Of a stretch of 64,000 bases of DNA, positions 25,209-43,951 are shown piece by piece. Made by a program: the position numbers and the translations under genes. The stretch covers positions 125,600 to 189,599 of the forward strand of contig NZ_QKTW01000027.1 of NCBI RefSeq assembly GCF_003236175.1, written 5' to 3'. Within the stretch, counting starts at the first letter, position 1. Every line of letters starts with the position of its first letter. The stretch comes from Taibaiella soli. Its GTDB lineage: Bacteria > Bacteroidota > Bacteroidia > Chitinophagales > Chitinophagaceae. A model generated the notes under the pieces. It made no database searches. It was not told the origin of the DNA and saw nothing but the letters and a program-made list of their open reading frames with translations.

Positions 25209-25238
25209 TTTGCTAAACGCTGGCGTAGCATTTAGCAA

Positions 25239-25304
25239 AATCCTGTACGGGACTTGCCTAACTTCTGTACAGGATTTGCCTGACTTCTGTACAGAAGTTT
25301 CCAA
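25239..25304. repeat. Three 22-bp tandem repeats containing a palindrome
   Basis: Units at 25239-25260, 25261-25282 and 25283-25304 share CTGTACRGRA plus TTGCCT-type sequence. The third contains the perfect 16-bp palindrome ACTTCTGTACAGAAGT (25283-25298). They lie upstream of the outer-membrane protein gene. Confidence 0.75.
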
Positions 25305-25398: not shown

Positions 25399-26067
25399 AT
25401 GTATCAACGAATTGTACTTACCCTCGTTTTCTTCTTCTCCGTAACATTTACCGACGCACAAGACAAAGGACTTTATTTAGGCATGCAAGCCAATGGGGGA
25501 TTTGCCAACGATCTTAACAACAACGCTACCAAAGCCGGTACAACCATAAACGGTCATAGCGAGCTTGGTTTCACCGGTACCTTTATGGTGAAAGACTTTT
25601 GGGGAATCACGACAGGAGCACTGCACACTAATTTCAATTTTGATCTCCGCTACGGTGACCATCTTTTAGGCACACAAAAGCTATATTATTGGCGAATGCC
25701 ACTCGGTGTACGTTTCATCTTTTCAAGAAAGCCGAGTCGTGTAAAAATTGATTTCTACGGCGGTTTATCGCTGTACTTTCTTCAAAAAGCAAACTTTACT
25801 GGCAACAGAGAAGGTCCGCTGGGACCTACAGTTTCCGACCCCACAACGCAAAATTATCATGCAGTAGGAGTGGGTGCTTATACGGGAATGGGGATGAATA
25901 TTCGAGTTGCAAAATCTTGCAATTTATTGCTTGGGTTCCAATTGGCAGGTGCGTTTGGTAACCAAAATAAGAGTGGCGAGATACAAGGCTATAAAATGAA
26001 CGCAAGCCTCACAACCTTTACGTTTAATCTTGGTTTTCAGATGTGCATCTTTTCGTATAGGCATTAA
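25399..26067 (+). CDS. Outer-membrane beta-barrel protein
   Basis: A 222-residue exported protein with a signal peptide (cleaved after TFTDA). The mature part begins KGLYLGMQANGGF and shows alternating hydrophobic strands, ending in a FNLGFQMCIFSYRH strand. This pattern is the porin-family/OMP-b-brl beta-barrel of eight to ten strands common in Bacteroidota. No specific function can be assigned. Immediately downstream lies the Uma2 duplication. Confidence 0.75.
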   Translation: MYQRIVLTLVFFFSVTFTDAQDKGLYLGMQANGGFANDLNNNATKAGTTINGHSELGFTGTFMVKDFWGITTGALHTNFNFDLRYGDHLLGTQKLYYWRMPLGVRFIFSRKPSRVKIDFYGGLSLYFLQKANFTGNREGPLGPTVSDPTTQNYHAVGVGAYTGMGMNIRVAKSCNLLLGFQLAGAFGNQNKSGEIQGYKMNASLTTFTFNLGFQMCIFSYRH

Positions 26068-26090
26068 GGGATTTGCCCGGATCGATAAAA

Positions 26091-26645
26091 ATGGAGTACT
26101 TTCGGGAAATGGGTGCAACGAAAATGATACCAAGGTATACATACGATGATTATAAAAATTGGGAAGGCAATTGGGAATTGATTAATGGAATTCCCTTTGC
26201 GATGAGTCCTGCACCTCAACCAAAACATCAGCGTATTTCGGTGCGATTATCTACTATTTTCGATAATGCTTTAAGTCAATGTAAATCTTGCGTTGTCTAC
26301 GGTCCTATCGATTATAAAATTTCAGACGAAACAGTGCTGCAACCCGATATGCTAATCGTCTGCGATGAAATCACAAAACAATATCTTGATTTTGCACCTT
26401 CACTTGTAGTTGAAATTTTGTCACCATCGACTGCTTCTAAAGATCGGCTCTATAAATATGAATGCTACCAGAAACAAGGTATCCCATACTATCTGATCGT
26501 AGATCCGGAGTCTGAAGAAGTGAATGTTTATGAATTGCGGGATGGCATTTATAGTGAAGCGGCTTCGGCAAAAGACTTTCAACATCATTTCAATTTTCCG
26601 GAAGCTTGCACTGCCGATATCAATTTCTCGGAAATCTGGCAATAA
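26091..26645 (+). CDS. Uma2-family PD-(D/E)XK endonuclease-like protein (copy 1)
   Basis: A 184-residue Uma2 (DUF820) protein. Family marks are WELINGIPFAMSPAP (Glu29), PKHQRIS, LQPDMLIVC (Asp86), VVEILSPSTASKDR (Glu108) and KYECYQKQGIPYY (Lys122 to Tyr), the restriction-endonuclease-like catalytic core. Biological role of the family is uncertain. The ATG at 26091 is preferred to the TTG at 26073 because it lines up with copy 2. The paralogue is 90 bases downstream. Outside residues 51-68 the two differ at only four positions. Confidence 0.9.
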   Translation: MEYFREMGATKMIPRYTYDDYKNWEGNWELINGIPFAMSPAPQPKHQRISVRLSTIFDNALSQCKSCVVYGPIDYKISDETVLQPDMLIVCDEITKQYLDFAPSLVVEILSPSTASKDRLYKYECYQKQGIPYYLIVDPESEEVNVYELRDGIYSEAASAKDFQHHFNFPEACTADINFSEIWQ

Positions 26646-26735
26646 GCGCGGTTGCAACAAAGTTACCTAGCTGTTATATCGCGAACCTGCAATAACAGAG
26701 AACCCGAAGTAAGGGATTTGCCCGGATCGATAAAA

Positions 26736-27290
26736 ATGCAGTACTTTCGGGAAATGGGTGCAACGAAGATGGTACCAAGGTATACATACGATGATTATAA
26801 AAATTGGGAAGGCAATTGGGAATTGATTAATGGAATTCCCTTTGCGATGAGTCCTGCACCTCAACCGAAACATCAACGTATTTCAGCTAATCTCCAGGCT
26901 GAATTTCGCATGTTTCTGAAAAAATGTGACGTATGTACCGTCTACGGTCCTATCGATTATAAAATTTCAGACGAAACAGTTCTGCAACCCGACATGCTAA
27001 TCGTCTGCGGTGAAATCACAAAACAATATCTTGATTTTGCACCTTCACTTGTAGTTGAAATTTTGTCACCATCAACTGCTTCTAAAGATCGGCTCTATAA
27101 ATTTGAATGCTACCAGAAACAAGGTATCCCATACTATCTGATCGTAGATCCTGAGTCTGAAGAAGTGAATGTTTATGAATTGCGGGATGGCATTTATAGT
27201 GAAGCAGCTTCGGCAAAAGACTTTCAACATCATTTCAATTTTCCGGAAGCTTGCACTGCCGATATCAATTTCTCGGAAATCTGGCAATAA
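26736..27290 (+). CDS. Uma2-family PD-(D/E)XK endonuclease-like protein (copy 2)
   Basis: A 184-residue paralogue of the preceding gene. Differences are E2Q, I13V, D92G, Y123F and a block at residues 51-68 in which 13 of 18 residues differ. All presumed catalytic residues (Glu29, Asp86, Glu108, Lys122) are kept, so both may be active. The ATG at 26736 is in the position corresponding to copy 1; an upstream in-frame extension to 26652 is encoded by copied trailer sequence and is unlikely to be real. The diverged block may alter specificity (inference). Confidence 0.9.
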   Translation: MQYFREMGATKMVPRYTYDDYKNWEGNWELINGIPFAMSPAPQPKHQRISANLQAEFRMFLKKCDVCTVYGPIDYKISDETVLQPDMLIVCGEITKQYLDFAPSLVVEILSPSTASKDRLYKFECYQKQGIPYYLIVDPESEEVNVYELRDGIYSEAASAKDFQHHFNFPEACTADINFSEIWQ

Positions 27291-27426
27291 GCGCGGTTGC
27301 AACAAAGTTACCTAGCTGTTATATCGCGAACCTGCAATAACAGAGGACTCGAAGTCGTCCAGCTGTCATTGTTTTTTCAATTGTGGGACGCAGGCTTCGC
27401 TGGCACGGTACTAATGGCATATTTCG

Positions 27427-27434
27427 TAAATTTG
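27427..27434 (+). promoter_or_regulatory. Possible -7 box, TAAATTTG
   Basis: A TAnnTTTG match ends 4 bases before the ATG at 27439, implying a very short or absent leader. No matching -33 TTG was found. Confidence 0.35.
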
Positions 27435-27438
27435 TATT

Positions 27439-27798
27439 ATGGAATCCGATGAAAATGCATATCTCGGTTCGCCTGATAATCCACGTACCGCTGCATTGGT
27501 CAGCTATATCACTATGCTTGGCTGGCTGACTGCCTATTTTCTTCTGTACCGCGGCAGTAGAAATTCCTTTTCTGCATTTCATCTCCGGCAGACTTTATTG
27601 CTACATATCCTGGCGTTTTTCCTCAACATCCTGAGTTTGCTTGCATTATGGCATTATATTCCAAACAGCGTCGTCATCATACTGGCCGTCTTATTACTGA
27701 TACTCTGGATGATGGGTGCATGGTCCGCTATTAATAACGAACAAAAGCCTGTCCCTTTGGTGGGCAGGCTTGCACAAAATTTATTCAGGAATTTGTAG
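27439..27798 (+). CDS. DUF4870/Tic20-like small membrane protein
   Basis: A 119-residue protein with three or four hydrophobic segments (about 17-37, 50-72, 75-97). The layout of a polar N-terminus, the NSFSAFHLRQTLLLH motif (FHxxQ) and following helices matches the DUF4870/Tic20-like family, whose function is unknown. Convergent with the next small gene, 20 bases apart. Confidence 0.7.
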   Translation: MESDENAYLGSPDNPRTAALVSYITMLGWLTAYFLLYRGSRNSFSAFHLRQTLLLHILAFFLNILSLLALWHYIPNSVVIILAVLLLILWMMGAWSAINNEQKPVPLVGRLAQNLFRNL

Positions 27799-43685: not shown

Positions 43686-43951
43686 GCGTCTACGTTCATA
43701 CTCTGAGCGTCAACGTTGACTCTTTTAGAATCAACATACATGTTCGGAGAGTCAAATTCCACTCTTTTTACCTCAATGTCCACTCTTTTAGAGTCTACGT
43801 TCATGCTCCGAGAGTCAACATTGACTCTTTTAGAATCAACGTCCATGCTCAGAGAGTCAAGCTCCAGTCATTTAGATTCAGCGTCGACTCTTTTAGAGTC
43901 CACGTTTATGCTCTGAGAATCGACATTGACTCTTTTAGTATCAATTTTCAG
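43686..43951. repeat. 21-bp tandem repeat array (minisatellite)
   Basis: About 12.7 units of 21 bp without spacers. Two main unit types: GAGTCAACATTGACTCTTTTA and GAATCAACGTCCATGCTCAGA, roughly alternating. Because 21 is a multiple of three, several frames stay open and give heptapeptide repeats such as MNVDSKRVNVDSRS on the minus strand, but that frame meets a stop (rc of 43868-43870 region) and no initiation context is visible. Confidence 0.9.

Follow-up and report, generated by a model that had tools for sequence, protein, structure and literature searches.

The window, which is the whole stretch of 64,000 nucleotides of Taibaiella soli DNA that was analysed, contains two tandem units of 645 bp each on the forward strand, unit 1 at positions 26065-26709 and unit 2 at 26710-27354; unit 1 opens with the T of the TAA that stops the gene upstream. 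The first-pass annotation had described two nearly identical 645-bp copies in tandem, which our comparison bore out, and had placed them at 26065-27345; the start of this span is right, and its end was corrected to 27354. Each unit carries one Uma2 gene on the forward strand, copy 1 at 26091-26645 and copy 2 at 26736-27290, both encoding 184 amino acids when read from ATG 26091 and ATG 26736, respectively. Because M7 is near-invariant in relatives, the true start of both genes is probably M7 (ATG 26109 in copy 1 and ATG 26754 in copy 2, forward strand), in which case the substitution E2Q would lie outside the protein. The gene upstream (25399-26067, forward strand) has a weak match to an outer-membrane beta-barrel model (PF13505, below its cut-off) and is probably unrelated to the Uma2 finding. 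A scan for sigma-70 promoters and terminators across positions 25900-27500 gave no signal above shuffled sequence. A 7-bp inverted repeat (CTGTTAT/ATAACAG) is present in the spacer separating the two Uma2 genes (26671-26698). Upstream of the pair, between an oxidoreductase gene and the outer-membrane gene, three 22-bp repeats are arranged head-to-tail at 25238-25303, the last of them with a perfect overlapping palindrome (ACTTCTGTACAGAAGT). A tandem array with a period of 105 bp, about 2.4 copies and shorter periods within it was found at 43688-43944.

Both copies matched the Uma2 profile PF05685, with 111.2 bits for copy 1 and 109.5 bits for copy 2 at a curated cut-off of 27. The H-PD-EXX-K motif, as given in the available sections of PMC551604, is intact in both copies and comprises H46 (26226-26228 in copy 1, forward strand, as for the following residues), P85 and D86 (26343-26348), E108 (26412-26414) and K122 in the following helix (26454-26456); all five residues were invariant across an alignment of 42 sequences. 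Both copies are thus predicted to be Uma2-type nucleases of the PD-(D/E)XK class. An AlphaFold (AF2) model was obtained for copy 2 (pLDDT 86.7), with a helix at residues 44-60 and a strand at 67-70, and it has the PD-(D/E)XK fold, matching the known Uma2 structures 6okh (Z 19.9), 9y1l (19.8), 1wdj (16.3) and 3ot2 (15.1). For 1wdj, the consulted part of PMC7582526 counts the residue pairs at the interfaces, 153 for chains A-B, 45 for A-C and 9 for B-C; the large A-B interface, for which the residues are not named there, fits a dimer. Both copies also matched PDC-S03 of PADLOC (E-values 1.5e-34 and 1.1e-34), which is a candidate defence model only, and the likeness seen here is a match at the level of sequence.

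The two units differ at 51 positions, 37 of which fall within 55 bp (26240-26294 in copy 1 and, at the same position within the gene, 26885-26939 in copy 2, both on the forward strand) and 14 in the other 590 bp. The probability of finding at least 37 of 51 differences within 55 of 645 bp is 5.4e-35, or 3e-32 when corrected for the choice of window, which excludes uniform drift, already judged a poor explanation in the first-pass annotation. This block consists of the third base of codon 50 and the codons of residues 51-68 (counted from ATG 26091). Thirteen of these 18 residues differ, and elsewhere the proteins differ only by E2Q, I13V, D92G and Y123F, exactly the counts that had been given before. 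In the model of copy 2 the block covers most of the first core helix past its first turns together with the loop to the next strand, and H46 lies near the start, that is the N-terminal end, of the same helix; for H43 of all3650, the counterpart of H46, a metal or substrate role is considered possible in the accessible text of PMC551604. A putative charge complementarity between the two helices (D58/R58 and K65/D65) was spotted by eye.

Ka/Ks was compared in and out of the block, a check which the first-pass annotation had proposed. Within the block pS was 0.93 (10.5 of 11.3 synonymous sites) and pN 0.60, whereas outside it pS was 0.09 and pN 0.008, so that at synonymous sites the block of this pair is older than its flanks. 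The genes outside the block look conserved (dS about 0.10, dN 0.008); the earlier description of the duplication as recent is qualified by this flank dS. Even of the five shared residues among the 18, L53, F57, L61 and C67 are encoded by different codons in the two copies. With its synonymous sites close to saturation, the block is homologous and old, and a burst of recent mutation does not account for it. An identity of 5/18 is typical for the block of Uma2 pairs that are about 45-50% identical elsewhere (mean 0.29), and both block versions conform to the family pattern. Among 36 relatives the mean entropy was 1.96 in the block and 1.43 in the rest of the protein, the most variable windows being at residues 146-160. 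The two 3' spacers are 97% identical and the ends of the units are sharp. Recombination as the likely cause of the mosaic, which had been suggested from the sequence, is supported by these results.

For the donor of the block the first-pass annotation had looked to a third Uma2 copy. This was not upheld, since a family search of the assembly (a draft of 32 contigs, 98.7% complete) returned exactly two Uma2 matches and searches of the same assembly with the DNA of either block returned no second copy. An 18-base match at C16 of the assembly (E-value 0.025) was taken as chance, as neither the family search nor reading of the sequence gave a Uma2 gene there. In plasmid and phage records (38 and 1, respectively) all relatives of copy 2 were below 60% identity, and in viral contigs one relative with 35% identity was found. 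The nearest relatives of the pair among the matches listed (394 genomes of a larger family; best 80 of 383) are about 60% identical, and these listings contained no congener of T. soli, although very near records may lie outside the best 80 of 383. Mutagenesis of the DGR type was rejected, as with either copy taken as template the changes also occur at T, C and G and are not limited to adenine. A chimeric assembly or a mixture of strains, for which the draft state of the genome might speak, is extremely improbable, since each copy has an uninterrupted frame and an intact motif and the pattern recurs in other genomes, one of them in a single contig (G419).

The absence of a donor in the genome also bears on a history in which a recent tandem duplication was followed by a conversion event of short tract that gave one copy a different helix, the donor Uma2 having since been lost or being foreign. 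The likeness of the spacers and the sharp ends of the units agree with such a history. Moreover, the block of copy 2 is the more family-typical (11-12 of 18 residues shared with five relatives, at most 10 of 18 for copy 1), so copy 1 could be the altered one. We nevertheless regard this import of a helix as rather improbable: besides the missing donor, the same segment would have to have been replaced in eight other arrays of the closest pairs described below, two of them in one genus, and in two genera the helix types are common to different species.

To place the pair among its relatives, the Uma2 open reading frames of related loci were collected and compared in all pairs (353 open reading frames, 264 after deduplication). 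The loci came from the protein and family searches (among the matches listed), tandem regions being picked by coordinates and therefore non-randomly, and the genomes were mostly Uma2-rich Bacteroidota; Cyanobacteria, to which the members of this family (Uma2/DUF820/COG4636) mostly belong according to the available sections of PMC551604, were left out. Open reading frames shorter than 120 residues, duplicates and pairs with more than 30% divergence outside the block were excluded; a pair also needed at least 90 aligned positions outside the block and at least 12 residues in it. Several tandem loci (L227, L231, L239 and L240, among others) do not enter the counts owing to these filters. The hypothesis was derived from the present locus and L012, and the pairs of L153, L158, L176 and L181 had been viewed before the first count.

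Outside the block, 32 tandem pairs of the survey diverged by no more than 30%, and 10 of these by less than 10% (G000, G036 twice, G681, G357, G419, G401, G793 and G566 twice). In all 10 of these closest pairs, which represent nine arrays of eight genomes with the present one included, the block divergence was 0.38-0.72, and the same held for 8/8 when this locus and L012 were left out. At equal outside divergence, 17 control pairs between genomes had a median block divergence of 0.11 (range 0-0.71), the two highest values (12/17 and 10/17) coming from genes of G419 and G423 that do not occupy the same place in the array, and three dispersed pairs within one genome had 0-0.35. The most divergent window of 17 residues was centred in the block in 9/10 of the closest tandem pairs and in 15 of 24 tandem pairs examined whose outside divergence was up to 20%; eight of the remaining nine had it at residues 148-169. 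The first-pass annotation had suggested the exchange of a specificity segment, and the behaviour of the block is in keeping with such a role, as the same part diverges in the tandem Uma2 pairs of other genomes.

Across the same 24 pairs, the block positions 51, 54, 55, 58, 59, 62 and 63 change most (in 67-88% of the pairs), and positions 53, 57 and 61 (L53, F57 and L61) are among the least changed (17-29%), a pattern which may be read as one exposed and one buried face of the helix. Synonymous changes were found in 27 of 66 conserved codons in the block versus 241 of 1448 outside it (P 7e-6); the P values of the survey treat the pairs as independent, although one array gave two pairs, one genome two arrays and one genus two arrays. 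Fast positive selection on the helix acting on point mutations, without recombination, would account for the high pN of the block and for the tendency of L53, F57 and L61 to be spared. It is nonetheless very unlikely, given that the synonymous sites of the block are near saturation in T. soli and raised in the survey, and that orthologues often preserve their helix type as well as the rest of the protein or better.

Two tandem pairs with a shared helix are exceptions, L144 5153/5905 (2/19 residues differing) and G423 L226 876/1729 (2/17), and block divergence was only moderate in L234 (6/16), where the worst window lies elsewhere, and in L275 (5/18). Both exceptions differ strongly near the C-terminus, so a second variable patch may lie in the strands there, as judged from few cases and in a region that is the most variable among relatives anyway. 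The L144 pair, from Aquificaceae, has the opposite mosaic: codons 51-103 are identical between the copies, which differ upstream of codon 51 and become very unlike towards the C-terminus, as after a putative conversion tract across the catalytic core. The reverse of the tandem pattern is seen in the dispersed pair L169 and L197 of G381, about 9 kb apart, whose blocks differ at 0/17 residues at 9% outside divergence. At L233 (G681:C44:24900-29100) five Uma2 matches lie in a row, one pair of which is below 30% outside divergence.

Relatives with two helix types were then compared between species. In the first array of G419 and G423, which belong to one genus, 18 block sites group by helix type and 0 by genome, compared with 7 by type and 8 by genome in the flanks (Fisher P 5e-4); on the C-terminal side in G419 and the N-terminal side in G423, the copies of one genome resemble each other more than they do those of the other species, which does not hold for the C-terminal side in G423. 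The second array of the two genomes is mostly orthologous throughout, its flanks also grouping mostly by type (32 to 6; P 0.07). In a second genus, G401 carries helix types a and b, of which type a is also present in G357 and type b, at 16/17 residues, in a gene of G804 with no Uma2 match nearby; the comparison of G401 with G357 and G804 gave 14 block sites by type and 1 by genome, and 10 to 16 in the flanks (P 8e-4). All three quartets compared among relatives thus have helix types in common across species (18:0, 25:0 and 14:1), and paralogues are closer than orthologues outside the block in parts of the flanks of the first array and in G401, and not in the second array. One of the same helix types is also found in congeners that lack a close tandem partner: G797, a third species of the genus of G419 and G423, has a single match at an E-value of at most 1e-60, which is of the first type (a), and the three Uma2 matches of G804 are far apart (among the matches listed). 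On this sequence evidence, the block in relatives is better explained as an old part that escaped the homogenisation of its flanks. Exchange of helix cassettes between unlike bodies was considered and rejected: only 9 of 33,132 pairs had a block identity of at least 0.70 with less than 0.65 outside, and these look like conserved helices in related proteins, which leaves wide exchange unsupported. The first-pass annotation had made its explanation depend on block exchange in relatives; relatives do show the same mosaic, which to that extent speaks in its favour, but wide exchange between unlike bodies was not seen among these pairs.

The spacers give further information on the age of the pairs. 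In L012, L158, L176, L222 and L224 protein identity outside the block is 93-96%, but the 3' spacers show no relation to each other (aligned identity 0.12-0.52, against a mean of 0.33 and a 95% point of 0.58 for random sequence), which would fit old duplicates with homogenised open reading frames. A 3' spacer common to both copies (0.82-0.97) was found in L181, L223, L001 and one pair of G566, the T. soli pair being included here. Some of the pattern might arise as a bias of survival, where recombination or redundancy removes tandem copies that are identical and pairs that happen to have differing helices persist, selection being confined to retention. This process overlaps with our preferred explanation and accounts for the difference between tandem and dispersed paralogues, of which the pair of G381 is an example. 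By itself it leaves unexplained both the flanks that are more alike in one genome than across species and, in the five pairs above, the unrelated 3' spacers beside open reading frames of 93-96% identity, and we think it unlikely as the sole cause.

The explanation we consider probable is that the Uma2 pair has one common body and two old versions of the helix, the body being homogenised and the helix being kept different by selection. On the simplest view of the family, recombination between the tandem copies, by gene conversion or unequal crossing over, would keep the Uma2 body alike, while the first core helix, which starts beside the conserved active-site histidine, would be kept different between neighbours. 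We infer selection as the cause of this maintained difference: neighbours sharing a helix would be disfavoured if, as we suppose, the helix determines the object of recognition, in the first place perhaps a partner subunit (in a dimer, or another protein) and in the second place a DNA target. The differing helix would accordingly have its biochemical role in the choice of partner or DNA, and its divergence in tandem copies of several other bacteria points to a specificity element held distinct between neighbours. For the T. soli genome itself, an old pair homogenised including its spacers appears preferable to a recent duplication with an imported helix because of the pattern in relatives.

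A wider reading, which we put forward tentatively and hold to be possible rather than probable, is that Uma2 arrays are specificity repertoires with a body made uniform by conversion and with stable old helix types, common across species, that define the recognition of a subunit, another protein or DNA. Neighbours would then be either the parts of an obligate heteromer or enzymes insulated from each other, and the C-terminal patch could be a second determinant. Uma2 genes can reach dozens per genome (53 matches in G681), and the recurrence of an 18-residue stretch that differs between close tandem copies points to a possible specificity part of these proteins. If true, this would add a bacterial example, spread over several families of Bacteroidota, of concerted evolution that a protected segment interrupts.

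Tandem copies, as found here, are on record for the Uma2/DUF820/COG4636 family in the available sections of PMC551604 and PMC2701414. The parts of the family papers at hand describe tandem duplication and cassettes of paralogues, whereas the present pairs combine a uniform body with one differing helix. No report of the helix mosaic was found in the literature on the family, which was covered mostly by titles and the openings of abstracts and included few subscription journals; the family, the fold and the tandem copies are therefore known and the helix mosaic is new as far as the literature search reached. The theory of selection against gene conversion predicts such a peak of divergence and has been applied to the red and green opsins (PMC3924837, in the part consulted), which likewise are duplicates that are alike save for one short functional stretch; unlike the opsins, the pairs described here are predicted bacterial nucleases from several lineages, with putative selection on the helix. 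A second parallel is offered by TLR1 and TLR6 (PMC2077338, as far as the accessible text goes), tandem paralogues in which one part is homogenised in each species and the other groups by orthologue, as would hold for the Uma2 arrays. There the homogenised part comprises about 300 residues near the C-terminus, the N-terminal sequences diverge and the ligands are known, whereas in the Uma2 pair it is a stretch of 18 residues that diverges.
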